Shown: one piece after another, positions 10,150-39,474 of the stretch | How positions within the stretch are numbered: position 1 is the stretch's first letter | Layout of the letters: each line of letters begins with the position of its first letter | Assembly: GCA_004123355.1 (NCBI GenBank) | Contig: SCHM01000001.1 | Coordinates: 248,001-312,000 of the forward strand | DNA: 64,000 nt | Reading direction: 5' to 3' | Source: Amphirosellinia nigrospora | Taxonomy: Eukaryota; Ascomycota; Sordariomycetes; Xylariales; Xylariaceae | Made by a program: the position numbers and the translations under genes | Notes under the pieces: model-generated | The model's input: only the letters and a program-made list of their open reading frames with translations | Told to the model about the DNA's origin: nothing | Database searches by the model: none

Positions 10150-13100
10150 ATGTCTTCGGGTGCCGAAAACGACGTTGCTTCAAATGAACAAAATGGTGGT
10201 AAAAAGGGCGAGAGGAAGCCGGAGAAGTCGTATTTAGCTAGCGCCGTCGAGTCCATAAATCCCTGGACCAGCCGAAGTACTACGCCAACACCCAAGAACA
10301 GTACTCCTCTATCCCAACCAAAAACAGCACCGCCACCGGCTCAAAAAGCGGATGATCATTCTACAAATACTCTTTACGGCTATAGTTTTAAGAAGTACCC
10401 TACCGACTGTCCGCCAATGAACGTTATGTGGTTTCATGCCGTTGATGTTTGTACTTTCTTGTCCTCGTCCGTTGTTAATCGTTACTAATTGTGATGACCA
10501 GGTTCCGAAGCGTAAGCCACAATTTCTGAAAGCAAAGACAGAGAACATCAAACCGGTGCTCCCCAAGAAATTTGCCGCCTTTTCAAAGGTAGACTCTCGC
10601 TCTCTTGAAAATGCATACCAGAGGTTACTGGAAGATATAGAAAACGATCGCGGGAAAAGCATAGCTAGCCAACATACGCGCACTCGATCTAGCTCAAACC
10701 GCTCCCGAGGTTTGTCTGTTGAGGCTGCACCGAACACTGCTTTTGGTGAAGAGGCTGGAGATACCTCATTGCGGGTACCAGTAAATGAGGACTTCTTATT
10801 CGATGTCGACGTTGAGAAACGCGAGCTGGCCCCCGTATACTGGCTTGGACCAATATATGAGGTTCGTCGTGGCACGTGTTCTGTACGCATACCCAAGTCT
10901 GCTGTTTTACGTTTTGGTGAATTTGCTCTCGTATTGCCTTCCCGCTCTAAGAACATTTAGGACGGGTGTAGTTTCGACGGGAGAATAATTTCTGACCTTT
11001 TTCATAGATCAGGAGGGATCATCGCTCCGGCCTTGTGAGGAGAACTTAGCAGCTCAGTTAGAGGAAGGCTACCTCAAGACTAAACCTTGGACTTATCCTG
11101 CCAATAGAACTCGCAGTGACTCTGGTGCACAGAGTGTCACTCTCAAGGCGTCGAAAGATAACCTGAAGGCAACTGCTAATTCTCAGACTGAAGTTTCTTC
11201 GAAGCCTTTGCCTCTTCAATCAATAGCGCCTCATCAGCCATCAACATATCGTCTCTTCGGTACGTACATGAACAGTGTAGCCACTTACCAAGATTCAAAC
11301 ACTGTGTGGCTGTCCTCCGAGTTAGTATTTTTATGTTCTTTATTTCTAGTTTGGCAAAAGTTCTGCTCCTATATACTATGCTCGTGCACGCTCCTAAAAT
11401 GCCCTCATTATTACTCGAACTTTTGCTACAAACGGCTGTTTCTTACTCTCAATCTTCTACAGCGGAGTGTTCAATTGGGTGACATCGACGGTCTATCAGA
11501 GATTTGCTGGCGGAGGTTACATGAATGGGATCAAGCTTGTCAGGGGTTACTCGGAAACCGGAAAAGTAAAGGATGCCAAACGGCCCCCAACGCCAACGAC
11601 AGCAACACTGCCGCCTCAGTTAAATAGCGACAACAAACAAGATGGAGACGACAAGGATATGAAGCGGCGTTCTGTCCCACATGCTACACGCTCGGATGCC
11701 ACCGATAGCGAGAGGGACCGGGACGGCGCTCGAGTAGAAATGGACCGAAGAGAGAATCAACTCAAACGCCAATTCTCTTCATACATCGAAGGCGCCGATG
11801 ATCCTGACAAGCAGGAGGAGCACATTCGACGACGTGAAGAACAAGAAATACAAGACGACTATACAGGCCAAGATGGTGAAAAGCAAGGACGGGAGATTGA
11901 ACATCTAGTTTTGGCAACTCACGGCATTGGTCAGAGGATGGCACTTAGGTAAGAAAGCACACCCCATTTACTAGAAAGTTACGGTCGCCATCTGATCCGA
12001 CACTTTTAGAATGGAAAGCGTCAACTTTATTCACGACGTCAACATGCTCCGGAAAACTCTTAAAGGCGTTTATGCTCACTCGGAAGACCTAAAGGCTCTC
12101 AACTCTGATAATGGAGAAGGCCCCGGCAATTGCAAGATCCAAGTGTACGTAATTCTGAGGGCCATTTTCTCATTTTCTTCTTGTTTTGGCAAGTTTCAGA
12201 GGCACAGCATTCTATTCTAGGATAAGAGAGTATTCGAGGGCTCCTAAAGCCTTCACAAATCACGCTGTAAATGGTGATAACTGACCTTGAGTGTTGCAGA
12301 TTACCTGTCTGTTGGAGGCATCTACTCGACTTTCCAAAAAGGCGAGAAAGGAAGGATGAAACTGATTTAGGTGATTTTACTGAGGACGATGACGAGTGTG
12401 AGTTTCACCGTGAATATTAGCCCAGTATAGCCTACTAATCTCATAGCAGACCCCTCCCTAGAAGATATCACCATTGAGGGGAGTGAGTAATTCTTAGTGC
12501 CTTTTTCTCCCTGTTTTTGCAACATTTAGAGCACATAGTTTCCTTTTGGGGACAAGAGGGTGTCTAGATGCCTTGTAACATCCACAAATCAATCCTAGAC
12601 AGCAATAACTGACTTAGAGTGCTGTAGTGGCTTTCGCACGATCCCTCATTTCCGATCTTGCGCTAGACGTTCTCCTATACCAAAGTGCTTATAGAGAACA
12701 AATCACGGAAATTGTTCTCAGAGAATCGAACAGAATTTACAAACTTTTCCTTGAAAGGAACCCAGAATTCAATGGCAAAGTTCATGGTAAGGAGTTTCAG
12801 AGTTGTTACTTACCTTATACTTATAGTCTTAAGAGTGGACAACTTTGTTCTCAGGCGAAGATTATACCCAAGAGCTTTTAAAACCCTCGTGCATAATGCT
12901 CTACATATCAATAACTAACCCTCCACTTTTCTACAGTCATTGGCCATTCCCTCGGATCAGCCATCATGTTTGATATCTTGTGCAGGCAAAAGCATCGAGT
13001 CCACACCATTGAGCCCCTTCGAAATCCCCTTCGGCCCTGGCCGTCTCGAGAACATTCAGGGCCTCATAAGCATCCCAGCCAGCTTTCGTTCGATTTCGAC

Positions 13101-14443
13101 GTCGATGATCTCTATTGCCTTGGTTCGCCCGTTGGCTTTTCCAAATGCTCAAGGGTCGAACAATCGCTGCGGCGACTCGTAAGTAATAACTGGGTCGTCT
13201 TGGCCCTTAATCGAAAAGCTAGAAAGCCCTTCCAAGGGCTATATAAAGCTGAGATGCTTCCCACGCTTCTAAAATAGCCAGAAATAATTATTCAAATTGG
13301 TAGCCACTAACACCGAATATTGCAGAACGAAACGCGGTACCGTCTGAAAGTCCTCTTAACGCGGAAAATATGGAAGATCCATTCCTCTCATCGTTAGGCG
13401 CCCCCGGGGAGCATTTATCGGCGGTTACTGGTCTGCCCCCATCTGTGTCGTCGCCGAAAGTTGCACAGCTCTTCAACATCTTCCATCCGTCAGACCCCAT
13501 CGCGTATCGTTTAGAACCACTAGTTTCGCCAGCGATGTCTTCGTTAAAGCCGCAAACTCTGCCATACACCAAAAAGGGCTTATTCTCAGCGGTAGCCCCT
13601 CAAGGTCTATCCGGGATTGGTGTGAAAGTAGGACAGAGCGTCAGTGGCCTGTGGTCGAGTTTTAGCGCGGGAATCGCCAGTAGCCTCCTCAACCGCAGCC
13701 TAGGATTCACGAACGATGATATAGCAAACTTTAATGCAGCCAACCCCCCAGCGAATAATTCTTCTTTCCCCAGCTCCGGCCAGGCCGCAGTTGACTCCCA
13801 TAACACTACCTCAGGCGCCATAGTTACAAATCCAGCGGCTCAGTCCGAGAAAACAGAGGCCCGCAAGAGAGCACTTGCGCGTCAAAACAGCTCCGCCCTC
13901 AACTCTACAGACCCCAGTACGCTCGGAGGGAACAATGGCAAAGATTCAACGTTGATTGATGACGACCTTGAGACGCTATACGCTCGCTTTCAGAAGAAGC
14001 GTGTAGAGGAGCACAAGGATAGTGCAAGCCGAGCCGAGGAAGGCCTGGAACTCGGGGCTGCATGGGCTGCGGAGGAACTGAAGGCACAGAAGCTTAGAAG
14101 AGAGGAATTGAAGGTGCGAGCACTCAATTGGAATGGACGTATCGACTACACTATCCAGGAGTAAGTGGGTTTCCTTTCTCTGTGCAATGAACCTCCCTCT
14201 GTTTTCAGACGCGTTATTTCGTGGAAACTTGCTCCCCACTAGTCGCAGGTGAGACGCTAGGATCTAATGTTAAATCATCAGGAGCGCGCTCGACTTCAAC
14301 CCATGAATACCATTGCCTCACACATGTGCTACTGGCAGGACGAAGACGTCAGCCACTTCCTGTGCTCGCAACTCCTTTGCAACCGCGATGCGCGTTCGAA
14401 AATGCATCAAGCTCAACAGACTTCGCCTGGCCGATATAACTGA
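10150..14443 (+). CDS. DDHD-domain phospholipase (PA-preferring phospholipase A1 family)
   Basis: Intracellular lipase of the DDHD1/iPLA1 family (yeast YOR022C-like), acting on phosphatidic acid or related phospholipids. The start at 10150 begins MSSGAENDV. The N-terminal part contains NVMWFHAVDV and PVYWLGPIYEVRRGT, both typical of fungal members. HGIGQRM lies before 11949, and the GHSLGSA nucleophile elbow (catalytic Ser) at about 12942-12962. The DDHD segment follows: CLGSPVG, FHPSDPIAYRLEPL, GRIDYTIQE and IASHMCYWQDEDVSHFL. Introns fitting the protein are 10447-10501, 10883-11007, 11321-11462, 11949-12009, 12145-12299, 12398-12449, 12483-12627, 12787-12936, 13179-13325 and 14161-14281, giving about 1,045 residues. 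One base appears missing near 10877 (RRGTW) and one near 13138. Six of the ten introns are long (121-155 nt apart from the 142-nt one at 11321), and two are introner-like copies. Confidence 0.93.
12145..12299 (+). repeat. Introner-like intron, copy A (in DDHD gene)
   Basis: This is a 155-nt spliced intron between KIQ and PVCWRHLLDFP, starting GTACGTAATTC and ending GTGTTGCAG. It shares ordered blocks with the introns at 12483-12627 and 33707-33851: GTAATTC just inside the donor, GCCATTTTCT, a GCAA-TTT-AGAG-CAC block, CACAAATCACGCT, and GATAACTGAC containing the branch site. Ordinary introns of one gene do not share sequence through their middles, so common descent from one intron-spreading element is the simplest reading. 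Confidence 0.7.
12483..12627 (+). repeat. Introner-like intron, copy B (in DDHD gene)
   Basis: This 145-nt intron separates ITIEG from AFARSLISDLALD and starts GTGAGTAATTC. Blocks shared with copies A and C are GTAATTC, GCCTTTTTCT, GCAACATTTAGAGCAC, GTGTCTAGA-GC (with C only), CCACAAATCA and AATAACTGAC. It is more diverged at its 3' half than A and C are from each other. Confidence 0.65.
12787..12936 (+). repeat. Possible decayed introner-like intron (in DDHD gene)
   Basis: A 150-nt intron splits codon V of KVH-VIGHSLG. It has the same length class and the same TCAATAACTAAC branch region as copies A-C, and GTCTTAAGAG in its middle, but the donor-proximal GTAATTC block is absent. It is listed as a possible older relative only; the match could be chance. 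Confidence 0.3.
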
Positions 14444-15495
14444 ACAAAGCATTAACTGATTAAAACCCTCAGCAAGGTTGCATCCCCTCCTACTTTCTTA
14501 ATACTTCTTCTCCCCCCCCCCCCCCCCCCCCCCCCCCTTCTCCCGTCCGAGGTTATTCTGGTATTAAATATAGAGGATCGATAGATTTACTTGTTGTTGT
14601 CTTCAGTCGAATGGCATATATTCTCGCGATTTAGGGGCCATGGGATAGGATTCTACACTAGCTAGCCAGCCTGTCGGATAGGTTGGACGGATGTACGATA
14701 TGATACACGACAACTAAAGACGTACAGCCGATGAGACCATCTTCGAGTCTGTGATACGGAATTAGAGCCTTAGATTCTTGGGGCATAGTAGAACATGGGC
14801 AGCGAAAGCAGGTGTAGCGGAACAGAGGATTGACCTGAAAGGGAAATCGCCCCTCGCTCTAGGGAATATTAGTCACTTGCACTTAGGCCCCAAGACGTTG
14901 AGTCTCACCATGAAGCAATCCACAATTCTATGAAACAATTATTCATGCTAGTGTAGGTAGCTACGATCACATTCTAGTTATTCCTAGAACTGGATATTGT
15001 CATGGTCTTGCATATGGTTACTATCGCATTGATCAAGTACCTATAGACCTTATCAAGTGCTATAAACCAAGCTACTAGCCGAGCAATACGACGTTCGCGA
15101 CCGTTGAATCCAGTACTATTTGTGTTTGTGTATGAAGGAAACAACCCTTCCTTGAGTGAGTGCGAAATCAACGACCTTAACTCCCGAATTGAAACACTTT
15201 TGTTCTCGGCCGAAAAGAACACGACCTTCGCCGAGATACGAATGAGCTTTTATGTAACTCTTCATGCTTTGTAGTGGATTCAAATGCCAGATCGAATCAA
15301 GAAAAGGCGGCACCATGGGTATTGAGAGTTGATGCAAAGCGAAATACGGGCGCCCTCTTAAGGTCAATGAGCCTAGACAGGGTAGGTCATCGGCATATTC
15401 GACCTCTCTCCGTAAGCAGACACGGAACGCCATGGTAGGATACATGGAATGTTTGGGGCCTGTGAGCAATTCCGTCCAACGTTACGCGAGAGCTC
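14444..15495. other. Convergent intergenic region
   Basis: Lies between the 3' ends of the DDHD gene (+) and the zinc-knuckle gene (-), so it holds their 3' UTRs and terminators. The conspicuous element is the poly-C tract at 14512-14537. Nothing else could be assigned. Confidence 0.5.
14512..14537. repeat. 26-base poly-C (poly-G) homopolymer
   Basis: An uninterrupted run of 26 C, about 70 nt after the DDHD stop codon and in its probable 3' UTR. On the minus strand it is a G26 tract able to form G-quadruplex structure. The exact length is doubtful because short homopolymers elsewhere in the window appear undercalled. Confidence 0.9.
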
Positions 15496-16346
15496 TTAAT
15501 TGGAGACATTAGGGCAGGCTGATTGAATGTGTCCGGGTTGCTGGCACTTGTAGCAAATCTTCTCGCCCCCAGAAGACTCCTTGGGGCAATCACGAGAGAA
15601 ATGACCATTCTCGCCACAGTTGTAGCACTTGCTGCCGTTCACACACTCGCCTATACTCTGTATTAGAAACCCGATGTTGGTCGCCTGGAGCTCCATAGGA
15701 TTACTTACGAGACATATGTCCATAGCCACCGCAAGAGTAGCAAGTCTTGCCTTGGCCTCCGCCGTAGCCGCCACCACCACCGCCGCCGCCACCGTAGCCG
15801 CCACCGTAGGAGTTGCCGCCATAGGCATCAGGGCAACTGCGAGCAATATGGCCGACCTTGCCGCACTAATATTCCTAGTTAGCGTAGTACCGCGTAACCA
15901 GGAGAGCTGCAAATTACCTTATAGCACTCCTGCGATCCGCCCTGGCCACCGCCGATGGGACCGCCTCCGCCCTGGGGCACTCACGGCTGATGTGACCTCC
16001 CTGGCCACATCGGTAGCAAGTCTTGTTGTCCTTGGGACCTTCGGGGCATTCACGGCCTATATTGCAACCTATTAGCCTCTCAATCCAGGTCGAGTAACGA
16101 GGACGAAGATTTACTTAGGTGACCCTCGTTTCCACAGTTGTAACTAGAAATTAGTTAGCGAAGAGAAGATCATTACAAAAAAGACATTAGACTCACCACT
16201 TCGCGGCACCACGGTTAGGGCAATCGCGGGCCTAGGGGAGCTTTTCATTAGTACAACTTCTTGCGGTCGAATATTACTCCGCTCAATCCTGAAGCAATCC
16301 ACCTCCCTACACCTCTTTTCTCATACCTGATGATTGGTCTGGCCGC
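15496..16346 (-). CDS. Multi-CCHC zinc-knuckle protein, CNBP/Byr3-like (5' end unresolved)
   Basis: Small nucleic-acid-binding protein made of tandem CX2CX4HX4C knuckles, the CNBP/Byr3/Gis2 type, which binds single-stranded RNA or DNA and is linked to translation control. Reading down the minus strand, exons give GGQTNHQ (a 20-nt exon, 16327-16346), [11 protein letters not shown] (35 nt, 16197-16231), then knuckles [70 protein letters not shown] and [14 protein letters not shown], ending SACPNVSN at 15496. A Gly-rich linker separates knuckles four and five. Six knuckles are complete; the first lacks its leading cysteines because the first coding exon upstream of 16347 could not be placed. One C seems missing in the CCCC after the HISREC knuckle. 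Confidence 0.9.
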
Positions 16347-18731
16347 CTAAAACAACAAAAATCATATGTCAGATCACACACCCCTGCCAAAAGAAAATAC
16401 CAGTGCTAGGACTAGGGAGACCAAGCTGAGTGGACGATCCCGCAACAAGATGTAGCTCCCACAATCCATTGGGGTATTTAAGAGGACGTGAAATAAGTTC
16501 AAATGGTGGCCAAGCACAGTCACTTGAGGTGCGAAGAGTAGTGTGACGTAGGTGTAACAAGTGACGCGGATTTGGACACGGCTAGGTATGACATAATAAT
16601 TGGTCGCACAATCATTAAGCGCCGGCCGTCGATCAAATTGGGAGAAAATCATAGTGAAGACAACGTAATAATAGTTTGTAGTCGAGGCGGGGTAACGAGC
16701 TGTACATTGTCGCAAAAACGGCCAGGTGATAACAATGAGGGCACAACGTGTTCAGAACTTACAAGTGAAGCACGCGCGAGTGGAGGTGGAGAAATCCATA
16801 GCGACGATGCGACTCGAGATTTCCTTTGTAGTATTGTAGAAATTCGGTGTTGAGGATCAGTCAAGAGCTGTCAGGAGAGTTGTAATTCTGATGAGCGGAC
16901 CCAAAGTTAGTTTTTGTAGGGCAAAGTGAGCGAAGGAGCAGAACCACAGTAGCGAGAATTGGTAACAAACAACAAAGGGTGCTGATGAAATTGTGATGAT
17001 GGACCCGGGAAGAGCAGATGAAAACTCTACTGGTACCACACGCTTCTCGCTAGCCAATGAGAAAGCGCGCACGCATTCTTTTTTGGCAAGTAGAGACAGG
17101 CGGGATCAGACGAGATCAGACACAACGCGCGACAAGAGACAAATAACCGGGGCTAGGGGTATAGTAGGCAACATACTGAAAGCCTAGGGGTTAGACTGTT
17201 GGACGGGGTAGGTGCTCCGTTCTGGGCGACAGAAATCAGAAATGTACAGTGGTTTCGTCTTTTGGGGAGGTATTGTGGGATCTGGACTGGAATAAGGTAG
17301 GGGAGTGATGTACAGCGGGAGTAGAAGTAATAGACCCACGGCGAGGTTGGGATGCTTCGTCGACGAATACCTAGTCTATCTAGGTATCTGGCGGGTAGCA
17401 GGTACCTGAAATAAGGCAATTACAGGTGCCTGCCAGGTATGTAGGTGTTAGGTAGGGTGGATAGGTGGGATAGGTGGGTAGGTGTGTAGGAGAAGTGCCA
17501 TGCTGTGAGTGTGGTTGCGGTTGTGGTTGTGTTCAAGTTCGAGCCTTGAAAATAGGACAAAGTAGATGGCGGGGTCACTGAGGGGTCTATCGAGGAGGGC
17601 TATTCACATAATAGCAAAGGAGTCGGGGATTTGCGGCAAATATGCCAATATCACGTACCTTTGTGGAGAGCGAACTGCACGAGAGCGCAACAGGAGGCGT
17701 TGGTGCGCAGTTGTAGCTGGTGATCCAGAGAATCCGCCAAGTAGGAAAGTTCGTGATGTATGTGTGAAGGTAGATAGATTTTTTACTTGGGATGACAATG
17801 TGCGCTTAATTTAGGTAGTGTACTGCAAGGTGGGATAACCCCGGCTACTTACCTAAGTACCTAAGGTGCCTAGCATTTGGTAGGTAGGTACATGTACCTA
17901 TGTACCTAGGTAAGTACTGCAAGTCCACTTATTACTTAAAAGATGGGTAAGTATTGCATTACTTAATTGATCCATTTGCAGAGGCTACATAAATACATAG
18001 AAGGTAGGAGGTAGGTAGGTACCTAGTAGTAAATGAAATCATGTTGCCACCTGAGTTTCCAATTTTGAAGTTTCCTATACCGAAACCCTCAGGTACATCT
18101 AGGCCTGGTAGGAGGTAGGTACTTGCAGGCACCTACTTATGTAGTTTCCAACCAAAGATACACTTCACCCACTTGTATTGACAGGAAAGGACAATCCCCA
18201 TTAAATGCCCAAGAAAATGTCATTTGCCTATGGGCAGTGTTTGTGCCCTTGCGAATTCCCTCCTTCTTAGCCTTATCGCGTGGCTGCGTCATACCTCCCA
18301 CGGCCAAATATACTAGTGATAAGGTAATGTAGCACTTTGATTTGTGATAGGAACATGCGCATATGTGATAGTAAGCTTTTTACAAGTAAATAATGGAAAC
18401 CCAATAGTCTATGCTAGGAAGTAAGTAGGTATTTTCTTTATCTTTGGCAGAACGCTACCTAGCAAATAATGTGCGTGCTAGTGTTACGGCCAGCGGCCGG
18501 GAAGCTCCGACGTCACTAGGACAGGATTACGTCGCGTCCGACACCTGACAAATAAAGTTGGAAACGCGTTCTGAGTTTAAGTCTTCCCAATCCGGACCCC
18601 CTCATTGGAAACGGTTACATGGAGTACCCACGACTTTTCATGTAGCTGCATTATTCAATAATTTTATGAGCAAAACAACTACCTAAGTAGACAACTTCTA
18701 GCTTCTTGAAGCAGAGTGTGGGCTGCAGGAA
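16347..18731. promoter_or_regulatory. Divergent intergenic region, zinc-knuckle gene / CtIP
   Basis: About 2.4 kb between head-to-head genes. It must contain the missing first exon and promoter of the zinc-knuckle gene and the CtIP promoter. From about 17380 to 18130 it is packed with TAGGTACCTA/CCTACCTA words. Short frames at 16572-16853 and 17566-17814 show no family signature and are not called. Confidence 0.5.
17380..18130. repeat. Cluster of TAGGTACCTA-type words
   Basis: Dense imperfect copies of GGTAGGTACCTA and its reverse complement, including runs such as TAGGTAGGTACATGTACC near 17880. The same vocabulary recurs near 9545-9630, 21160-21440, 32870-32990, 39980-40020, 40380-40430, 50590-50640 and 58030-58150, always between genes. 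The words are partly palindromic. They are not a tandem array with fixed period. Function unknown. Confidence 0.6.
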
Positions 18732-24900: not shown

Positions 24901-25034
24901 CCGGTGCGAAGAAATGGAGTTCAGTAGCGAATGCTAATGGCTCAAGTAACACCGCGCCAGTAAAGAATAAGTCTGTCAAGGACAGTGTCAAGGACAACAA
25001 GGTCGCCTACCTGTTGTTCTATCAGAAGATATAA
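21993..25034 (+). CDS. UBP3: Ubiquitin carboxyl-terminal hydrolase, Ubp3/USP10 family
   Basis: Cysteine protease that removes ubiquitin; in yeast Ubp3 works with Bre5 in vesicle traffic and ribophagy. The start at 21993 reads MNGNHLPAGQP. A Gln/His-rich then Pro-rich low-complexity N-terminus follows (HHHHQ runs, MVYPFSQMNPYVNAYYPPQQ). The catalytic Cys box GLVNTGNMCYMNS lies at about 23476-23514, DAEEFLGFLLQAL at about 23970-24008, LILHLKRFSYNA near 24440, and the His box KSASGGHYTVDLRR near 24640-24680. The stop is at 25032. Introns are 22644-22702, 23515-23567, 23675-23733 and 23897-23969. Single-base losses shift the frame in the N-terminal part (around 22000-22070, 22350, 22450, 22580 and 23020-23150); the catalytic part is open apart from introns. 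About 930 residues. Confidence 0.93.
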
Positions 25035-28000
25035 ACCTTCCAACTTCGAATATGCACAGGTCCTACAATCTATAAGTGTAGTGCGTTGTCGCGTCTAAGT
25101 TGAACTACAACGGCGAAGAACTGTGCTGCAAAGGCACTCACCATATCGCATTAACTTGAATTAAAACTAGATACAATGAAATGCGGTCACGTTTAAATGG
25201 TAAATTTCAAGGGGCAAGGCGTCCCAAGAAGAGAGAGGTTCGATTTGACGCAATGCACTTTTCACGCAGTTGAGGGTGGAGGGTGGAGGCATTGTTGTAC
25301 TACTACTATCTCGTATGAGTAGTTGACGTCAGAATCATTGTGTAATTCGTACCTGGGTGCTGGGGTTACCATTGGACGATCGGTCTCTCGCGGTCTCTAG
25401 GTTTTTTCCCTGGTTTTTTTCCCTGGGAATTCATGACCCTCGTCGGACTTGCCATAGTCCACATATTCTGCCTTGGTTTGCACACTTATTTTGTTGTGCA
25501 AATATCATGACATACCCCGGTTGTAGAGTATGGAAAAGTTGTTGATGAGTAAAACTAATAGACGACTTCGTATTATCATGTGCAGTAGGCGATCCCTTTC
25601 TTGAGTACCTACAGAGCTCTAAATTAGGATTAGGGCATACATGAGCTGGGAATTTTCAGGCGCAGTGTATGACCATCGTTTGAAGGATAACTTCGCGTCA
25701 ACATATATGGAAGTAGCCACTCTCGTTTTTCATGCTGGTAACTTAAATAGGTTCAAGTAGCCGGCTGCGTGGTCGTTATAATATCAAGACCCCATACTCA
25801 AAAGTCAGCCAAGATGTGGCGTTGCAAAATCGGGTAGCTATCACAAAGTCTTGTCAGGTCACAGCTCAAGAGACATCTAATAAACTATATATACAAGGAT
25901 ACTTAGACGTCAGAGAGGCATCAGTGAAAGTGTCAATCCTTCTGTTATCGCATAACCAATAGGTGAAACAAATAAACAACTCTATGAACAGGGTTCAGTC
26001 TTGTATTTTAGACATTGCTTAATCGGCAGCCATGTTATTCTTTACTGATCGTTTATGTTCATAGTCTGATAGCTTCATTGTCGTACAGATAGTTGTTGAA
26101 TGACAGAGGTGATTTACCCCCTTTTCCTAACGTGAACAGCATATTGTGCTCTTTATAGACCTTCTCTCCAGGATATCCTAGGGTTGTTCGTTTCGAGTCT
26201 CTATAGTGCTGCGGCTCTGCTCTACGATACTTTCTCGACTAAGTGTTGGGGCGTAATTTTGACACACGTGGACAACTGGGACAAGAAACTACATCATTTA
26301 TATCTTTTGATAAGTCACAAGGTATGAGTTGATCTTGCCTGAGGGTTGCCGTTGCTGCATAATGCAACCCTTTGTCTCTTAGATGAGCCAGGTAGTTGGA
26401 GGAGACCTTCCCATTTTTTGAATGTACACCCTTTTAACTCTGTGTGAACAACGATGAGCCTTGTGGTTTGCTTTGCCACGGTGGCAAATAGCATGTATGA
26501 TTTTCAAACCTGAACCCGAATAGAGATTCCTCGGATCTTAAGCAAGTTCAAATCTATCTATCTACAGGATCTCTATATATATACGTACATATATGCACGC
26601 TGGTCTAATGCTTGCGAGGCCCAACTGAAACTGTCGATCTAATTTAGAAATAAACATCGTAGCCATGATGGCAAGAGGTCGTTTGATGACGCATTAGAGA
26701 TCATTATGGTGAAGATTCCTTGATCTTATATCATTTAGTGGCATTCTATATGATGAATGGAATGCATGGCTCTTCGCACACGATATCAACAAATGAGTGT
26801 ACTCGAGGCATCACCGACTACGAAGCTCGATGAGGATGGAAAAATAAAGAGTACTGAGCTAGTTATGTACCAACTATCAAGATTTTGTTCATCGAACCAA
26901 CCATATGTCACACGGACCCTGGCTGAATGCGCAATACAGTGCCACACAGGGTTATATACGGAGTTCGCTAGATACTACCCTAAGAGGCTGAGGCAGTCGT
27001 ACGAAGTTATCGTGAGTCTCAGAAGCAGATACCGAGCTGAACTCGAACACCGAGACATTCGCTTCTCCGGCTACACAGGTTTTTAGATCTCGGTCCCGTA
27101 AAGGACCGCGACTGTAGGAAAGAAGGAGAATTCTGAGCATAAAAAGGGCACGAATCCTCCCTTCGAGAAAATAAGGAACTTAGATCTATATGGCCCCTTT
27201 GGCACCATAGTTGCTTACTACTCAATTGAACCTATTGCAAGCCCTCAATCAGAGCCCTTGTGACACCATACCAGGGTGTATTGTTGTTGCTTGAACATAG
27301 ACTAGGAAACATGCCTCCTTTTCTGCAGGGGGTTTAGCCTTATTCATACGCGCAACTGAACAATTGGTTTCTATTAGTTTTATGTGCCGTGGCTTACCCC
27401 GATAACCTTATAGTAGTTTTTCATGCATAGAGTCAACTAACCTTCGGGGTTTGCCTTAAATTCACACATTTTTGCGTGCCTCTATACTCAACATATGCTC
27501 TCACAGGCTCGGTAGTTTAGCTAGATGCGTAGGATGGAGAGCAGATCATATAGAGAAATATAATTAATGGGATGTGGTCATCTAACTACTGTCGACTGTA
27601 GTGCTGGTGCGCTTCTGGTCGCTTTCACCCTCGTTAGTAAAACGCCAGCTCTGGGTCACATGTGCAACACCTATAGTCCTCATTATACCCAGTTAAACAC
27701 TCTCGATTATAAGTTCTAAACTCCTAAACTCCTTTAAGTAGCAAAATGTGTCTTGAGGTCCGAATTAGTCTCTTTCTTTTGTGAATACCACATTTAAAAC
27801 AATAACACTAATTTTATTTTTATTTTCCTTTTTCCTCCCCTGGGTTTTCCCCTTTCCATCGGGATAAAAACCCTATATCGTATATGTCCACCCCAGCAGG
27901 TCTTGATTGCATAGTTTGACTAGGACAAGACGCTTCGGCGTCTGTTAACAAACTTTTATCAAACTTCTATGATAGGCAGAACGCCCCATTCGCCATTAGT

Positions 28001-28086
28001 CCCCCGCCCTAGTCCCTAAGACCCGAGACTGCAGCTCATTGGCCTTGAGATTTGACGGTGGCCAACCAGGCGGCCTCATGATACGC
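25035..28086. other. Gene-poor region
   Basis: About 3 kb with no recognised gene. One open frame at 26757-27086 (+, 109 codons, contains STELVMYQLSRFCSSNQPY) has plausible composition but no family signature, no identifiable neighbours in frame and no supporting splice sites. The rest is AT-leaning intergenic sequence. Confidence 0.5.
26757..27086 (+). CDS. Hypothetical small open frame
   Basis: A 109-codon uninterrupted frame. The first ATG at 26764 would give MALRTRYQQMSVLEASPTTK. It is charged and helix-prone, with no signal peptide, membrane segment or motif I recognise. It lies alone in a gene-poor stretch, so it may be chance or a remnant. Included only as a candidate. Confidence 0.2.
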   Translation: MECMALRTRYQQMSVLEASPTTKLDEDGKIKSTELVMYQLSRFCSSNQPYVTRTLAECAIQCHTGLYTEFARYYPKRLRQSYEVIVSLRSRYRAELEHRDIRFSGYTGF

Positions 28087-30291
28087 TCACATTCCTGCGA
28101 GGAGCATGGCGATGGCAGAAACCAGCATGCTACCGAAGGCCGGGTTAGAAGTACCGGCACCGCCTTCAGGTACCTGCATAGGTGGATGAGGTCCCATCGC
28201 TGGATGATTCTTAGGGGGCACAGCCTCGTGGCTTCCTGGTGGTGGGCGGAAGGGCGGGTGGCCTGGAGGGAAAGGACGGCCTGGGGACCTGGGGGACCTG
28301 GGGGACCTGGGGGGCCTGGGGGCCTGGGCGGTATGGGGGGACCCTGGAGGCCCGGGAGGCCATACGGGAGGCCACGCGGGAGTAGGCGAAGTGGTCGTAG
28401 CAGTTGTTGTGGTGGTAGACCAAGGAGTAGTATACCAAGGAGTGGTATACCAAGAACTACTAGTAGTGACAGGAGTACTGGTGGTAGTGAGATGAGTACT
28501 AGTAGTGACAGGAGTACTGGTGGTAGTGATATGAGTACTAGTAGTGAGATGAGTACTAGTAGTGAGATGAGTACTAGTAGTAATAGGAGTACTAGTGGTA
28601 GTGAGATGAGTACTAGTAGTGAGATGAGTACTGGCGGTGGTAGAAGAGCTAGTAGTGAGATGAGTACTGGTGGTAGTGAGATGAGTACTAGTAGTGAGAT
28701 GAGTACTAGTGGTAGTGAGATGGGTACTAGTAGTAATAGGAGTACTGGTGGTAGTGAGATGGGTACTAGTAGTGATAGGAGTACTGGTGGTAGTGAGATG
28801 GGTACTAGTAGTAACAGGAGTACTAGCGGTAGTGAGATGGGTACTAGTAGTGATAGGAGTACTGGTGGTAGTGAGATGAGTACTAGTACTGGTGGTAATG
28901 AGATGGGTACTAGTAGTAATAGGAGTACTGGTGGTAGTGAGATGAGTACTAGTAGTAACAGGAGTACTAGCGGTAGTAGAAGAGCTAGTAGTAAGATGAG
29001 TACTGGTAGTACTGGTAGTAGTAGAAGAGCTAGTAGTAGAAGAGCTAGTAGTAAGATGAGTACTGGTGGTGAGATGAGTACTGGTGGTGAGAGGAGTACT
29101 GGTGGTGAGAGTACTGGTAGTAGTAAGATGAGTACTGGTGGTGAGAGGAGTACTGGTAGTAGTAAGATGAGTACTAGTAGTAATAGGAGTACTGGCGGTA
29201 GTAGAAGAGCTAGTAGTAAGATGAGTACTAGTAGTACTGGTGGTAGTAGAAGAGCTAGTAGTAGAAGAGCTAGTAGTAAGATGAGTACTAGTAGTGAGAG
29301 GAGTACTGGTGGTGAGATGAGTACTAGTAGTGAGAGGAGAACTGGTGGTGAGAGGAGTGCTGGTAGTTAGAGTTGTGCTGGAGGGAGAATGAGTACTGGT
29401 AGTAAGAGGAGTGCTAGTAGTAAGAGGAGTGCTAGTAGTAAAAGTGCTGGTAGTAAGATGAGTGCTAGTAGTAAAAGTGCTGGTGGTGAGAGGAGTACTA
29501 GTAGTGAGATGAGTACTGGTGGTGAGAGGAGTACTGGTGGTGAGAGGAGTACTAGTAGTGAGATGAGTACTAGTAGTAAGAGGAGTACTGGTGGTGAGAG
29601 GAGTACTGGTGGTGAGAGGAGTACTAGTAGTGAGATGAGTACTAGTAGTAAGAGGAGTACTAGTGGAGAGGAGTACTGGTGGTTAGAGCAGTACTAGTAG
29701 TGAGATGAGTACTAGTAGTAAGAGGAGTACTAGTGGTGAGAGGAGTACTGGTGGTTAGAGCAGTACTAGTAGTGAGATGAGTACTAGTAGTAAGAGGAGT
29801 ACTAGTGGTGAGAGGAGTACTGGTGGTTAGAGCAGTACTAGTAGTGAGATGAGTACTAGTAGTAAGAGGAGTACTAGTGGTGAGAGGAGTACTGGTGGTT
29901 AGAGCAGTACTAGTAGTGAGATGAGTACTAGTAGTAAGAGGAGTACTAGTGGTGAGAGGAGTACTGGTGGTTAGAGCAGTACTAGTAGTACTGGTGGTAG
30001 TAGAAGAGCTAGTAGTGAGATGAGTAGTAGTAAGAGTACTAGCAGTGAGAGGAGTGCTGGAGGGAGAAAGAGTGCTGGAGGGAGAAAGAGTGCTGGAGGG
30101 AGAAAGAGTGCTGGAGGAGAAAGAGTGCTGGAGAGAGAAAGACTACTGCTGGCAAGAGACGTTGAACTAGCTGATATGCTGGTGGCAGTACTGGTCGGAG
30201 AAGTGATCGGACTATTGACTGGCGGATCTTGTGCCTCTACACTCCGTACTAGGGCAACTGCCAGAGCGATATAAAAACCGCTGCCCTTCAT
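28087..30291 (-). CDS. GPI-anchored Ser/Thr-repeat cell-wall protein
   Basis: Reads as a secreted, heavily O-glycosylatable wall protein or adhesin-like protein of about 730 residues in one exon. It starts at 30291 with signal peptide MKGSGFYIALAVALVRSVEA, then QDPPVNSPITSPTSTATS. Next come three to four STLSPS hexamers and a long tract of TSTPLTTS-type octads encoded by 24-nt units (about 28450-30010 in DNA). After the repeats comes TTTTTATTTSPTPAWPP, a Pro/Gly-rich collagen-like patch (PPGPPG), NHPAMGPHPPMQVP, and a C-terminal tail GTSNPAFGSMLVSAIAMLLA followed by GM and stop at 28087. That tail, small residues then a hydrophobic end, is a typical GPI-attachment signal. One base is missing in a STLSPS repeat (about 30115) and the Pro-rich patch changes frame. 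The plus strand is open across much of the repeats but is judged a shadow. Confidence 0.8.
28450..30010. repeat. Coding minisatellite, 24-nt units (12-nt sub-rhythm)
   Basis: About 1.5 kb of imperfect units such as GAGTACTAGTAGTGAGAT, reading as Ser/Thr/Pro/Leu octads on the minus strand. Unit variants differ by third-base changes and by swaps of AGT/GGT. Period 3 is maintained, which fits a coding tandem repeat. Confidence 0.9.
29683..29970. repeat. Higher-order 72-bp repeat, four near-identical copies
   Basis: The segment beginning TTAGAGCAGTACTAGTAGTG recurs at 29683, 29755, 29827 and 29899, with the next start at 29971, a constant step of 72 bp. Copies two to four look identical; the first differs by a short loss. 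Each copy equals three 24-nt units and keeps the minus-strand frame, so this is a recent in-frame expansion within the GPI-protein gene. Confidence 0.9.
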
Positions 30292-30874
30292 CTTGGATCC
30301 TTGGGCCACTATTTGTGGTAAAATGAGAAATGATTCTGAGGGATTCCGAGTGGTACTGTAAACCGTAGCAATGAGCGTGGTGAAAAGGAGAAGAAGACGG
30401 ATCAAATGCGCAAGGGAACATCCAATCCATATATTCTTCAAGCTTGTCCAGGCAGCCTGGCTTAAAAGCTGGTGAGAGTTGACTAGGCAAACCTACGGTC
30501 TAATTACTGTAGGTTACTACCTATTACATGGCGTGACAAAGTTAACTAGACACGAAATCATGGATATGAACTGAAGTTTACGTGTCGATTTATGGTGGGA
30601 GGTGAATAAATGAACCGTGCAACAGTTGGGAAGCAGCTGAAGTAAGATGCATGAACAAAGCCGCGACGCACATGGTAGACTTTGGTCATGGTAGTAGATA
30701 TTGAACAGTCCAGGCTCAAAGGCTCAGAATGTCATTACCTTTAGACTGCTAGTAATGGTCGTGTACTCAGGGTTGGGCTTCGATACCTTAGTCTGTGAAA
30801 GCGGAGCGCATATCCCAACTCCAGGTTTGCTCAGGTGATATCAACCAACATCCTTATCTGCCATCCCAACCATG
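30292..30874. promoter_or_regulatory. Intergenic region upstream of GPI-protein gene
   Basis: Lies between the ORM stop (minus strand) and the GPI-protein start (minus strand), so it serves as ORM 3' UTR and GPI-protein promoter. No other feature was seen. Confidence 0.45.
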
Positions 30875-31587
30875 CTAAGGTGCTCTTCTCAAACCTAAAA
30901 GAGAATTAATCTTCGGCACACCGGAAAATAGACCAACTCTCATGCGATGACTCTGTGAACTCGTCAGATGGCCTGGCCACACAGGGTACTGGATCTCAAG
31001 GGGTACGTACAAAGGGTAGTTTCGGTATGACTACTCCTAGAACAGCTAGAAAGTTGATTGTGAAATATGCGAGGTCGTAATGGGTATAGTGAGTGCTGAG
31101 GAGGAAAAGCACAATAGGTACACTGAGTAAAAACTTCTTGGCTGGCGTATACTGCGCACCGTCATCGATCTGCTCCCACATGTTCAAGTTGTCGTAGGCG
31201 CCACTATTGAAGTCAAAAGGGACGCCACGGACCCAATGGAACATGATATAAGAGCCAAACATATAAGATATGTTGGTAAGCGTCCACGAAGTTTCTTGTG
31301 AAACACCAGGGATGACGTCCCAAAGAATCTTGAGAGCAATAATCAATACAATGTGGATCGTCCACGCTCCTATATCCAGCCGAAGCGTATTAGTACCTAC
31401 GTCCCAGGATCGCCCACGTCGCCTATGGGCACATGACCCAGCACATACCTTTGGCGTTGACCCAGTTTGCATTGAGGTTAGGGAGAGCAGACTGGTCGCT
31501 CAGCTGTTCTATGGGCTCTAGTGGTTCTTGGTAGATCTGGAGGATGCTACTAGACCTCCGCCTCCTACCCGTCTTCTGATCACCCAT
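30875..31587 (-). CDS. ORM1: ORM/ORMDL sphingolipid regulator
   Basis: ER membrane protein that holds serine palmitoyltransferase in check and so sets sphingolipid synthesis. Three exons: 31449-31587, 31011-31369 and 30875-30952, with introns 31370-31448 and 30953-31010. The frame is intact for 191 residues. The N-terminus is MGDQKTGRRRRSSSILQIYQ; RRRRSSS corresponds to the Ypk1-phosphorylated serines known in yeast Orm1/Orm2. Then come ALPNLNANWVNAKGAWTIH, PGVSQETSWTLTNISYMFGS, FDFNSGAYDNLNMWEQIDDG and the hydrophobic C-terminal pair of helices, ending in an SHRMRV tail. Four membrane segments are expected. It is one of the few multi-exon genes here with no frame break. Yeast has two paralogues, so the symbol denotes the family. 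Confidence 0.95.
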
Positions 31588-33193
31588 GTTGGAATTCTGG
31601 TAGGCAGCGTGCCGTCGAGGAGGATTGGTGCCGACGTCGTATGAGACAGTCCGGGGAATAAGAATTGGGGAAGACAGTTTGGCGGTATTGACCGGCGTGT
31701 CACAGGAGAGGGTCGGTGATCGGAGGCGGCTGTCATCCACACGGCGTAGGAGGGCTCGGCGAATAGGCGGAACGGGATCGGAACAACCAGGCTACCATGA
31801 GCGCCGCTGTGTTATGTGTGGTGGAGCACTGAGCAAAGCGTTAAAGCAGCGAACCTAGGCCAGAGTTACGATGAAGTGAGAACGGCTAGAGGAACGAGAA
31901 TATAGCGTGTCGACGACGAATTCGGAGAGTGGGCGGGATTCGGCTGGCCGGCGTACTCAACGACGGGGCGATTGGCTATGCTATCCAGACCACACCATAC
32001 CAGAGCCGCATTCACAATCAATCACAATCAAAACGACAACCACAGCCACAGCCGCAACCGCAACCGCAACCGCAACCTCAACCTAGAGCTAGAGCTAGAG
32101 CTGGAGCTGGAGCTGGAACTGGAACTGGAGCTCGATCTCAACCCCGGCCTCGGCCTCAACCCCGACTGAAGCCAAACCCAAGCCGAGTAAAGGTCACTGC
32201 TACCTGCCTAGCGAAGGCCCAAAGATGGTCGCCGAGTATCAGGAACTGTGGATGTCACCCGAGTCCGGGGCGTCGGTCGAGATGGAAGGGCAAGAATAGT
32301 AGAGCAGCGAGCCAGGCTAGCGTCCGTCGTGGTGGGCAACACTAGCAGGACGGAGAGGATATTGACAGAGTGACGAATGATGTGAATCTATGCTGTACTG
32401 GCTGACTGGCCGGCTGACTGACTGGCTATTTAGATATTGGCCTGCTCAAAGACAGATTGGATGAGGCCGGGTTGGAAAGGGTCAACGAGATGAGACTGCG
32501 GAGCTGTCCGCCCTCGCCTTGCCAACCCGTCACATCGACCCTCAGCTGGCAAGCGCCGCAAGCCTAGGCCTCTCGTCGGGGGTTGCGCACACGCCTACGT
32601 CCAGCTCAGCTGATGTCAGCTGCGAAGAGGCCGGCTTTCGGCAGAACTCCTGCACCGTATGTCAATTCAGGTAGGTCCCCACTTAAATTGGACGTGGGAA
32701 CCTGCAAAACATTGGGTTGGTTCTAGGCCTTGAAGACCCTTCGTCGGGACTGCCGTCAGGAGGAACAGATGACTTTCGTCCATTTATAAATAATATGTGT
32801 AGCATGATTCGCAGAAGTCCAAATTAAATTCGAAGTACTTTTCATGATTTTTATACCCATGTACTAAGTAGGTGTGTAGGTGTAGGTTGATAATAACATA
32901 ATTACATTGGAGGTACCTAAGGGCTAGCGGCATGTGGGTTGTATGCCATTTTACGTCAGCAAGGCTACCTAGGTAACACTGTAACCTGGAAAAAGCATCT
33001 GAAAGAGCCGCAATCTCAATCCGACCTTCATACCGTACCATTCTCATTCACCCAATAAAGCCTGCAGCGCATGACGCCACTCCTCTGCCGTTGTTACCCA
33101 GGATAGACGTTCAAATTCCTTTTCTCTGCGAGTTTGAACATCATTTAAACCTCATATTTTTACTTTCGGCTGACGTTGGCGTTTTCGTGCTTC
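31588..33193. promoter_or_regulatory. Divergent intergenic region, ORM / AIR
   Basis: About 1.6 kb shared by two head-to-head genes. It includes hexamer simple repeats at about 32036-32132 and TAGGTACC-type words near 32870-32990. The plus-strand open frame through 31929-32345 is low-complexity and not called as a gene. Confidence 0.5.
32036..32132. repeat. Simple hexamer repeats (AACCGC, then GAGCTA/GAGCTG)
   Basis: About five AACCGC units pass directly into AGAGCT/GGAGCT units. They lie upstream of the ORM gene and probably belong to its promoter or 5' UTR. Confidence 0.85.
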
Positions 33194-35257
33194 ATGGAAC
33201 AACACTCCTCAGAAGATCTCGATGGAGCTCACGTCTCACAGCGACCGGCTAGCTCGTCAGCGGGTAGCCCAAATCCACAGAAAAGGCCCCGTGATTATGG
33301 TGAAGAACTGAAAGGCCTGGATTCTTCTGGTGACGAGGGTGCCCATGGGGACCTGACAGCTACCGTCAAGAGACGAAAGGTGGGCCACAACACTGGTGCC
33401 AATAGTAGCAGCGGTAGCGACTCGGAAGGCTTAGACGATGGCGAGATAATAGAGTCACCTCTTCCTTCATATATCGCCCAGCCAGTCAATGCGGAAACCC
33501 CTACCCCTCTGCAAACTGATTTGCCACTGCAAACCTCAACTACGCCAAATGCTCCCGCAAGCGTGTCATCTGAAGATGGCGAGATAGACAAGTCTTCGCG
33601 GACAGAGCAGGTTTCAACGCAGATCAACGAGATTGACGAGCAAAAGGGGGCTAGAAATCCCAAGAACCTAAGAACACATCTCTCCAGCAGACTTCTCTTC
33701 CCGGCTGTGCGTAATTCCCGGAGCCATTTTCTACTTGTTCTAGCAACTTTGAGAGCACGAGACCCCTTTTTCGGCCACGAGTGTCTAGAAGCTTCTACAG
33801 CTCTCACAAACCACGCTACGAATGGCGATAACTAACTCTGAATATTTATAGGGAATCATGGGATCCAGTTAGGCACGCGAACTGCTTTCGGGGCCAAGCC
33901 TGCCAACTCTTTTTTCGAGACTCCCCGTGCTGCTATTGATGCCACGGAGCAAACACAAGAACAGCAAACCAAAAAGGAAAACAAACGGGTCCGATCACGC
34001 GACCCAGTATCCTCTTTTGAAGCGAGCAATGCAACGTGGAATTTCCCTCAATGCTCCAGAAATCATTACACCCGCAGACACGTCCGAGGAAGATAATTTC
34101 TGGGTTGCACTTTTGCAGGAATTGATTGTTCGTTTAGTCCAAGTGAATGGCGAAACAGCCGATCGTTTGACTTATAAAGTGGTACGTTCAGGCTGGGCAT
34201 TGTACTTCACTAAGAGAATGGGCTTTCTTCATGGCACCAAGAAACACATCAGCGCTATTAGAATCGTTGCTCAAAATTTTATGACTTCGCTTTCTAAGGA
34301 TCATATCGATGCCATGATTTCGGATGCACGACAGGAGCACCCTGCAGACCAATCTGATGATATTATGGTGGTAGGTTCTTCGCCATCCAGTCATGACGAA
34401 GAGTCTCGCCTACAAACAAAGTACTTTCCAGGCGCTGATGATCCGACTCTGCACTGCTTGTCATGCTCTGGGGTTGGACACACTACAAAGACTTGCCCCG
34501 AGCTGGGCTGCCGGTTCTGCGAGAGCAAGAGCCACAGGTCTTTTGGTTGCCCAACGAGGCACAGATGCGATAAATGTCGCCAAATTGGTCACGCCCTTGA
34601 AGCGTGCCAGGAGAAACTTCATCTAGCCACGGAGGAACTTGATGGTTGTGCCTTCTGTGGTGCAGATCACCAAGATCAAGATTGTTTTGAGATATGGAAA
34701 AGTTTTAAACCCTCAGGGCTACACACGAAGAAGGTGAAGAGTATTCCGGCGTTCTGTTACGTATGTGGTGGCGAGGATCATTACGGACCGGAATGTTCGC
34801 TTCCTAATGGATGCGACGAGGTAAGAAAGCGTGCAACTTGGTCCAAGGCAACACGCGATCTATATGTCAACCCCGAGAGCGGAGACATAGCCATAGCCTG
34901 GGCCGATGTTGACTCCAGCCAGCTTATGAGGAGTGAATTTCACATCCCTGGACGAGCGGCTCGAAAGACTACCTACTTCGTCTCAAGTGATGAGTCAGAG
35001 GAGGAGCTTATCCACGCACCTATAAGAAAGCCCCAATCCCGCGGCGAGATCAGAATCGCTATTGGCACGATGAATGGAAATTTGCACGGACGCGAGCAGC
35101 CGCCTCTGCCCCGGGCCCGCCTCCGCCGCTCGTAGAAAACAGGAAGCCATTCCAATCTGCCCCTACAACATTACCACCACGGCCTCAGTTTAGGCCTGGA
35201 CGTGGTCGAGGCGGGTCACGTGGCAGAGGGCGTGGCCGTGGTAGAGGGAGACGATAG
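33194..35257 (+). CDS. AIR1: TRAMP-complex zinc-knuckle protein, AIR1/AIR2 family
   Basis: RNA-binding subunit of the nuclear TRAMP polyadenylation complex, which marks RNA for exosome decay. The start at 33194 gives MEQHSSEDLDGAH. An acidic, Ser-rich N-terminus carries two DDGEI/EDGEI motifs. Five knuckles follow: CLSCSGVGHTTKTC, CRFCESKSHRSFGC, CDKCRQIGHALEAC, CAFCGADHQDQDC (one residue short of the usual spacing) and CYVCGGEDHYGPEC. The C-terminus is a GRGRGG tail ending RGRGRR at 35257, reached after a one-base loss near 35090. The single long intron ends at 33851; its donor is GTGCGT at 33707 or GTAATT at 33711, depending on whether a G is missing at the acceptor. Another frame change lies near 34045. 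About 640 residues. The intron is an introner-like copy. Confidence 0.92.
33707..33851 (+). repeat. Introner-like intron, copy C (in AIR gene)
   Basis: A 145-nt intron starting GTGCGTAATTC and ending ATTTATAG. It shares ordered blocks with two DDHD introns about 21 kb away: GTAATTC, GAGCCATTTTCT, GCAACTTTGAGAGCAC, GTGTCTAGAAGC, CTCACAAACCACGCT and ATGGCGATAACTAAC with the branch site. It is closest to copy A at both ends and to copy B in the middle. Confidence 0.7.
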
Positions 35258-38990: not shown

Positions 38991-39474
38991 TTACGCACTG
39001 AAGTATTCTGGACCGACTCGATCCAGGAATTGGAACTCTCTTGGTTTGGTGAACATGGCCTCGGTAATGGCGAAGTATTCCTTATAATAGTCCTTGGTAA
39101 CCTGGTTCTGGACGACAAAAACAGTGCCATTAGCGGCCGTCAAGGCTATTTACGCCAAGGGATTGTGTTTTTTTACGCACCTCGAGAAACCACTCTGGCG
39201 ACTTTGACCTGGGACATGGTTAATATGTATGTTGCACGAATCCGTGTCTCGCCAACAGAGCTTACCAGTTCTCCACCCAACTCAGCTTCCCCGGCTCTTG
39301 TGGGCTCTGATACATCTCAAAGAATAGACACTCGGGCTCGGCAATGACCTTGTTGAAAACGGGCTTGAATGCGGCCAAGAAACGATCAACATTCTCGGGA
39401 GCGATGTACACGGTAACGTGCAGACTCCAGCCAGTGGCGACGGGCATCTTGTGTAGTATGGCGGGACTGTTCAT
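38991..39474 (-). CDS. ABM-fold (antibiotic biosynthesis monooxygenase-like) protein
   Basis: Small dimeric ferredoxin-like alpha-beta protein of the ABM family, which includes quinol monooxygenases and many uncharacterised fungal enzymes. Three exons give an unbroken 117-residue protein: 39266-39474, 39181-39208 (only 28 nt) and 38991-39107, with introns 39209-39265 and 39108-39180. It starts MNSPAILHKMPVATGWSLHV (a second possible start is the Met at 39447). Conserved features are the VTVYIAPENVDRFLAAFKPV strand-helix, EPECLFFEMYQSPQEPGKL, WVENWSKSPEWFLENQ spanning the splice sites, and TKPREFQFLDRVGPEYF near the end. No signal peptide. The substrate is unknown. The neighbouring transporter could supply a substrate, but that is guesswork. 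Confidence 0.85.

Follow-up and report, generated by a model that had tools for sequence, protein, structure and literature searches.

Four introns in a 64-kb window of the Amphirosellinia nigrospora genome are very likely decayed members of one introner family

The multiplication of introns within a genome is a phenomenon that is already known, and the family described here is a further case of it. In ascomycetes, introner families have been described in which introns similar over their full length lie at unrelated sites of one genome, with neither terminal inverted repeats nor target-site duplications, a combination that is their outlying trait (PMC9860276). The same source describes DNA-transposon introners from algae and other protists, in which repeated introns also create new positions, often with inverted repeats or target-site duplications. 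The introner-like elements (ILEs) of Dothideomycetes are described as canonical U2 introns that have multiplied in the sense orientation within genes and decay to ordinary introns; two copies can occur in one gene, many copies are nearly identical, and low-identity families that are probably inactive are also known, as in Dothistroma septosporum (PMC4457414, PMC3443670, PMC8469720). A stable structure has been predicted for ILEs (PMC3443670, PMC8469720). Finally, in Hypoxylaceae and Xylariaceae, sister stwintrons and cropped sister introns are reported to have proliferated without flanking duplications, with a [D1,2] stwintron that begins with G|GT, terminal inverted repeats of 45–55 nt, and a WTTCTAGAAA palindrome (PMC8469720, PMC12403724).

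Analysis of one contig stretch of A. nigrospora (64,000 nt; hereafter, the window) revealed four introns that resemble one another from end to end (i1 to i4; Table 1). A first-pass annotation had proposed that three of these (i1, i2, and i3) are copies of one introner-like element, and the sequence blocks that it quoted were found in the three introns at the coordinates it gave; i4, a fourth full-length copy on the minus strand, was absent from its list. The DDHD gene is supported by a Pfam DDHD match (E-value of 2.6e-47 on 13304–14161) and by 727 stop-free codons from 10150 to 13178 with eight introns removed, and the ABM protein by a Pfam ABM match at residues 10–62 (E-value of 8.7e-7). The third host gene had been named AIR in the first-pass annotation; knuckle-like patterns are visible by eye in its translation, but no Pfam family matched and the name was not confirmed. 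Other genes in the window are AIM5, RPC1, eIF3f, and UTP25; RPC1 and eIF3f had PDB matches, which gave no taxonomic placement, and UTP25 had none. The gene content (AIM5, for example) and the short introns suggest a filamentous ascomycete. ARAGORN found nothing in the whole window.

Table 1. Positions of the host genes, the four clear intron copies, and the candidate decayed members in the window
Feature	Position (nt)	Strand	Description
DDHD-domain protein gene (phospholipase-like)	10150–14290	+	Ten modelled introns; 3′ end approximate
Gene called AIR in the first-pass annotation	33194–35135	+	Cys/His knuckle patterns by eye; no Pfam match
ABM-domain gene	38829–39448	−	114-residue protein; three modelled introns
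Copy i1	12145–12299	+	155 nt; phase 2; DDHD gene intron
Copy i2	12483–12627	+	145 nt; phase 1; DDHD gene intron
Copy i3	33707–33851	+	145 nt (or ending at 33868 with the later AG); gene called AIR
Copy i4	38855–38998	−	144 nt; phase 1; final intron of the ABM-domain gene
Probable decayed member	12787–12936	+	150 nt; DDHD gene intron
Possible decayed member	13179–13325	+	147 nt; DDHD gene intron
Possible decayed member	11321–11462	+	142 nt; DDHD gene intron

In global alignments, the three pairs among i1, i2, and i3 gave z-scores of 7.2, 10.3, and 9.6, and none of the 300 end-preserving shuffles reached the score of any pair, which upholds the claim that these introns are copies of one element. 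All six pairs among i1–i4 had z-scores from 6.3 to 10.3, each above 300 of 300 interior shuffles that left 6 nt at the donor end, 22 nt at the acceptor end, and the dinucleotide make-up unchanged. Scores no better than those of shuffled introns, which the first-pass annotation had named, together with a lack of further genomic hits, as grounds for abandoning its proposal, were not observed. When single introns served as nhmmer queries against the 64-kb window, i1, i2, and i3 found one another with E-values of 2.3e-8 to 7.1e-12, and all 12 matches among i1–i4 had E-values of 1.5e-6 or better; on the target side, every one of the 12 began no more than 3 nt from the donor and finished no more than 9 nt from the acceptor. 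A self-BLAST of the window returned three matches under its filters, all between i1–i4, and BLAST matches among 23 introns were likewise confined to i1–i4. Nine of these 23 introns were chosen predictions in other genes, and the coordinates used for two DDHD gene introns deviated slightly from their modelled positions of 10917–11007 and 14161–14208. The gene-finder script invents introns outside real genes and was used only within genes backed by Pfam, homology, or reading frame.

The mean pairwise identity of i1–i4 was 0.64 in the introns versus 0.20–0.30 in the adjoining exons, and the identity of the intron interior was 0.61 versus the 0.26 expected from composition. Specifically, the copies are 62–67% identical in a MAFFT alignment and roughly equidistant (K2P distances of 0.47–0.59); transitions account for 207 of the 311 differences summed over the six pairs, a share that fits decay from a common sequence. 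Conservation is uneven, with several internal blocks better kept than others, and the best conserved columns include the splice signals. No tandem repeats were reported within i1–i4, and i1 carries an extra 8-nt tandem duplication relative to the other copies (CATTTTCT). All four copies lie in the sense orientation relative to their host gene. Common ancestry follows from similarity that spans the introns and ends where they are spliced, together with the fourth copy, the unrelated flanks, and the unlike host proteins. As judged from the DNA sequence, i1–i4 are shown to be decayed copies of one ancestral intron at unrelated sites, and each copy appears to be exactly one intron, no more and no less.

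A working definition of introners asks for at least four introns per genome linked at an E-value of 1e-5, for similarity that begins, at either end, no further than 5 exonic or 10 intronic bases from the boundary, and for non-paralogous hosts and sequence that is not of low complexity (PMC9860276). Permissive BLAST among the 23 introns placed four of the six pairs at 1e-5, which links all four copies; with a word size of 11, only one of the six pairs reached this value. The end boundaries were observed in 12 of 12 nhmmer matches, while the BLAST local matches were shorter, and one of the four pairs at 1e-5 (i4–i2) reached both ends by itself. The hosts are non-paralogous and the sequence is not of low complexity, with two of the four copies sharing the DDHD gene. 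On the applicable points of this definition (Gozashti 2022), i1–i4 would qualify as introners. The introner-like interpretation offered by the first-pass annotation is supported by full-length homology, the presence of i4 in yet another gene, and unrelated flanks and hosts, and we consider it very likely that i1–i4 belong to a single introner family and have decayed. Points against this reading are that the 64 kb contain only four clear copies, of which two share the DDHD gene, that they have no stable fold, and that the acceptor of i3 conflicts with the reading frame.

The i3 acceptor is ambiguous: the similarity extends to 33849–33851, but the frame then stops after six codons, and an alternative AG at 33868 would hold the downstream frame open. 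Frame breaks are present in several conserved genes of the window, which makes the reading frame a weak judge. The i4 junction was placed by frame and similarity only. A search of the genome-contig collection for an intronless homologue that spans this junction gave no relative, and the one match among plasmids (26.5% identity, E-value of 8e-3, residues 17–99) ends before it. The PDB relatives of the DDHD protein are weak (best whole-sequence E-value of 1.4e-4, best single stretch 0.065); they are continuous over the 12787–12936 junction and fall short of the i1 and i2 junctions.

Among the 14 modelled introns of the three host genes, 7 ranged from 48 to 91 nt and 7 from 142 to 155 nt. This split is claimed only for the 14 host-gene introns, whose models may miss terminal introns, because the 23-intron list was partly hand-picked. 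The first-pass annotation had described its three introns as about twice the length of most others here, which holds against the short class; long introns are, however, more numerous than it saw (7 of 14). The three long introns other than i1–i4 may belong to the family in a more decayed state, one being probable and two weak. The intron at 12787–12936 had a profile score of 30.5 (rank 2 of 1987 background segments), which none of 2000 shuffles reached. In comparison, the intron at 13179–13325 scored 31.4 (rank 1), a value that 42 of its 2000 shuffles reached, and that at 11321–11462 scored 18.6 (rank 13), with 35 of 2000 shuffles reaching the score. A wider reading, in which a single introner family that lacks both terminal symmetry and a stable fold gave all seven introns of 142–155 nt, five of them in the DDHD gene, is tentative, with the chances somewhat against it.

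We found no long terminal inverted repeats in i1–i4; inverted repeats were no better than those of shuffles, except that the best self-complementary match was a 12-nt internal palindrome in i3 (E-value of 0.002), which the other copies do not have in this form. Target-site duplications and repeats between the end of the exon and the end of the intron were not found at any of the four copies, and each of them contains its own two splice sites. Folding energies revealed no stable fold (MFE z-scores of −0.25, 0.58, 0.24, and 0.01 for i1–i4, 300 shuffles each), and near-terminal duplexes were no better than chance, being reached by 62, 258, 181, and 295 of 300 shuffles. RNAalifold gave a consensus energy of −1.58 for i1–i4, with two-sided changes in 2 of 19 pairs and no conserved fold. 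Rfam had no match at the gathering threshold in the window and none at E-values up to 1 in the three intron-bearing stretches. Degenerate exact-match patterns, two against a collection of viral contigs and one against a collection of genome contigs, had no matches; these collections are viral or prokaryotic and uninformative on fungi.

With the ascomycete introner families, as described in PMC9860276, i1–i4 share full-length similarity at unrelated sites and the lack of terminal inverted repeats and target-site duplications; the difference, in a comparison by description only, is that here four clear copies come from 64 kb. Like the ILEs, they are sense-oriented in four of four cases, with no flanking repeats and flanks at chance identity, and they include two copies in one gene. 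Unlike the ILEs, they have no near-identical members among the four, and they fold no better than their shuffles, although an older structure may have been present and since decayed. The stwintrons resemble them in having proliferated without flanking duplications and differ in several respects: the bases before the i1–i4 donors are T, A, T, and A, the terminal inverted repeats are absent, and the palindrome is matched at best with 2, 2, 2, and 3 mismatches. Neither GTATAAAAAC nor the NTIRE-10 of Xylariales sister introns is present in i1–i4. The inverted repeats or target-site duplications often seen in DNA-transposon introners are missing from all four copies; given the age of the copies, short features of this kind could have been lost by decay.

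Several other explanations of the likeness were weighed against an introner family. That chance or common splicing signals (motifs at the donor, branch site, and acceptor, in a sequence rich in pyrimidines) produced it might be suggested by the splice signals among the best conserved columns, but shuffles that keep both the signals and the dinucleotides never reach the scores of the six pairs, the interior alone is 0.61 identical, and only i1–i4 match one another among the 23 introns in BLAST. This explanation has a negligible probability and can be rejected for i1–i4; it may still apply to the introns at 13179–13325 and 11321–11462. Just as negligible is the possibility that the intron was carried along when longer segments or paralogous genes were duplicated. 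Two copies are indeed separated by 183 nt within one gene, yet the exon flanks are at chance identity (best flank BLAST E-value of 0.39) and the host proteins match one another in pairwise BLASTP at an E-value of 1.3 or worse (DDHD and AIR compared in part only). For the sequence in view, such a duplication is refuted, and only a very old one with complete exon turnover would fit. A functional RNA family, for example a snoRNA, duplicated inside existing introns could account for the internal blocks conserved above others, but the similarity extends to both splice sites, no Rfam match occurs at the gathering threshold in the window or at E-values up to 1 in the intron-bearing stretches, and the RNAalifold result gives no conserved fold, so we regard it as very improbable.

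For most introner families that do not come from ascomycetes, the route proposed is insertion as DNA by a non-autonomous, MITE-like transposon whose target-site duplication supplies a splice site (PMC9860276), and decay could have wiped short duplications and inverted repeats from such old copies. Nevertheless, no copy has end repeats or duplicated flanks, the element includes both of its splice sites, long terminal inverted repeats were not found, and all four copies are sense, which leaves this route improbable. An unlikely but more serious candidate is a repair route in which intron RNA or its DNA copy was captured at double-strand breaks rather than reverse spliced, a mechanism put forward for the stwintrons of Hypoxylaceae and Xylariaceae (PMC12403724, PMC8469720). 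Seamless integration without flanking repeats fits such capture; however, in that proposal the RNA ends are joined by inverted repeats or a stem, and none stands out in i1–i4. Repair alone also leaves sense-only insertion unexplained, though exons might not tolerate copies in the antisense orientation.

According to the introner explanation that we prefer, the ancestor would have been a U2-type spliceosomal intron of ~145 nt with its own donor, ATAACTRAC-like branch site, and acceptor, which was presumably copied into new positions within exons. The excised intron RNA may have been reverse spliced into a transcript or into transcription-opened DNA and then fixed as DNA; within the introner explanation, we consider this reverse-splicing route slightly better than an even bet. 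An old burst of copying would have been followed by decay to ordinary-looking introns, for example the long introns at 12787, 13179, and 11321. No recent activity is seen because the copies are 62–67% identical. That an ancestral intron once multiplied and made new introns is what we infer, the gain being read from homology alone.

The origin of new introns is a long-standing question to which introners are among the few direct answers. Symmetry has been linked by some authors to fungal intron copying, and a fungal family at several stages of decay and without symmetry would help test whether the RNA route needs structure. If the window were typical, the family would have shaped a sizeable share of the introns of this genome, which four copies in 64 kb, with two in the same gene, cannot establish. 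If the wider reading of the long introns is true, symmetry would be unneeded for the spread of fungal introners or lost early, and the DDHD gene alone would have been colonised five times, showing the full path from a recognisable introner to an ordinary intron.

The first-pass annotation had proposed an introner, an intron family copied into new sites, from three introns (i1 to i3), whose coordinates and common ordered blocks proved correct as given when we re-read the sequence and aligned it with MAFFT. In a repeat search of the window, the end of i1 matched 38855-38890 in inverted orientation over 36 nt, and reading the minus strand there uncovered a fourth intron, i4 (GTGCGTAATTT...GTGTTGCAG). 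It belongs to a small gene, and the spliced product of this gene contains an ABM domain. All four copies are alignable from donor to acceptor (MAFFT), with an 8-nt tandem duplication accounting for most of the additional length of i1. By eye, the alignment displays a pyrimidine-rich stretch with a TTTNAG-like end, ~47 to 55 nt from the donor, kept in all four copies; judged from sequence, this end could be a cryptic acceptor. Near its middle, i3 also hosts a perfect 12-nt palindrome, and self-comparison found none such in the other copies.

Introns of the family, candidate decayed members, and other features of the window
Feature	Position (nt)	Strand	Gene	Phase (by reading frame)	Profile score (rank among 1987 segments)	Own end-preserving shuffles reaching score
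i1	12145-12299	+	DDHD	2		
i2	12483-12627	+	DDHD	1		
i3	33707-33851	+	AIR	0		
i4	38998-38855	-	ABM-domain gene	1		
Candidate	12787-12936	+	DDHD		30.5 (second)	0/2000
Candidate	13179-13325	+	DDHD		31.4 (first)	42/2000
Candidate	11321-11462	+	DDHD		18.6 (thirteenth)	35/2000
Apparent frame slip	near 13110-13150	+	DDHD			
Apparent frame changes	about 7060; 6340-6270	-	RPC1			
Apparent frame change	about 34000	+	AIR-like			
Apparent frame change	about 59880	-	UTP25			
Large minisatellite, 18-nt unit	28283-30142					
Perfect 8-mer array, TTCATCTC, 10.8 copies	40909-40994					

The similarity held against shuffled introns: all six pairs beat 300/300 shuffles (z 6.3 to 10.3; n = 300 per pair), with donor, branch region, and acceptor preserved. 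Single-intron queries recovered the other three copies in 12/12 nhmmer searches of the 64 kb (E-values of 1.5e-6 to 7.1e-12). A profile of the four placed only those four above inclusion in the 64 kb, a match that is circular by construction, and the next match was 12829-12921 (E = 0.055). Self-BLAST of the window (E < 0.01, low-complexity filter on, >25 nt, queries from the 27.5-30.6 kb tandem zone omitted) returned three matches, every one among i1 to i4, and BLAST across 23 introns likewise matched only these, in 5/6 pairs with permissive scoring and 1/6 with word size 11. Two of the four clear copies lie in one gene, and the 64-kb copy density is not to be extrapolated to the genome.

The similarity is confined to the introns themselves. 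Specifically, mean pairwise identity was 0.64 over whole introns and 0.61 over their interiors, versus 0.20 to 0.30 per 20 nt in flanking exons (composition expectation ~0.26). Each of the 12 matches from single-intron queries began, in target coordinates, ≤3 nt from the donor and ended ≤9 nt from the acceptor. No flanking duplications were found around the four introns, and the intron-adjacent bases vary from copy to copy. All four copies are in sense orientation relative to the host gene, and the three host proteins (two compared in part) displayed no similarity by BLASTP (E = 1.3 or worse).

Among the 14 introns modelled in the three host genes, seven measure 48 to 91 nt and seven 142 to 155 nt, with none intermediate. 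We scored candidate decayed members with the profile against 1987 GT-AG segments of 135 to 162 nt on both strands (mean score -2.7, SD 7.8), 16 of 2003 having been dropped for starting ≤12 nt from the four copies. The third-ranked segment, at 29.7, is antisense and little below the second. An earlier ranking, limited to 99 segments by tighter criteria, likewise placed 13179-13325 and 12787-12936 directly below the four copies. Pairwise alignment with i1 to i4 gave uneven support (z 1.4 to 4.3 for 12787-12936; 1.1 to 1.9 for 13179-13325). On sequence grounds, 12787-12936 is probably a decayed member of the family, and 13179-13325 and 11321-11462 are possible ones.

Removal of eight modelled introns leaves the DDHD gene with 727 stop-free codons, from the ATG at 10150 to 13178. 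The AIR gene had no Pfam match; similarity in i3 stops at AG 33851, yet the reading frame from that acceptor soon reaches a stop, and an alternative acceptor AG at 33868 would leave a frame open. Translations inspected by eye displayed apparent frame changes with no obvious intron in four conserved genes, DDHD (ahead of the next exon), RPC1, AIR-like, and UTP25. These resemble indel errors left in an assembly that was not polished; introns missed in the models are a possible alternative. The minisatellite holds ~84 copies within 28458-29989; its minus frame 28087-29682 is open and would encode a Thr/Ser-rich repeat protein (TTSTPL/TTSTHL units), and a plus frame is likewise open across much of the array. 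No tandem repeats were reported within i1 to i4.

Compared with known systems, i1 to i4 fall within the working definition of an introner in the available part of PMC9860276, where ascomycete families are treated as outliers for having neither inverted repeats nor target-site duplications. Two marks of Dothideomycete elements, as described in the available parts of PMC4457414, PMC3443670, and PMC8469720, are near-identical copies and a stable structure; i1 to i4 show neither, and their RNA folds are no more stable than those of shuffles. Low-identity families are also described in the accessible text of PMC4457414. Rfam yielded no family for these introns. Stwintron identity was rejected by end-symmetry and stwintron-motif tests (PMC8469720 and PMC12403724, available parts). 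Among the top matches listed in literature searches, which covered few subscription papers and neither sequences nor supplements, none was recognised as describing this family, and an earlier published description may exist.

Identity among the copies was 62 to 67% in the MAFFT alignment and 71 to 77% in pairwise alignments with freer gaps. K2P distances ranged from 0.47 to 0.59 with no close pair, and transitions made up 207 of 311 differences summed across the six pairs. The lack of a close pair and the transition excess fit an old spread, after which the copies would have decayed independently.

Since the copies carry all splice signals and sit seamlessly in exons on the sense strand, their spread is best explained by copying via intron RNA, by which the family would have multiplied. 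Reverse splicing is the route preferred by earlier authors for fungal elements (PMC8469720, available part), and the main alternative is capture at double-strand breaks, as proposed in the Discussion of PMC12403724 (available part); evidence from the window is compatible with both. No long end symmetry was found in i1 to i4, and its absence counts against models that require it, unless symmetry was erased through decay.
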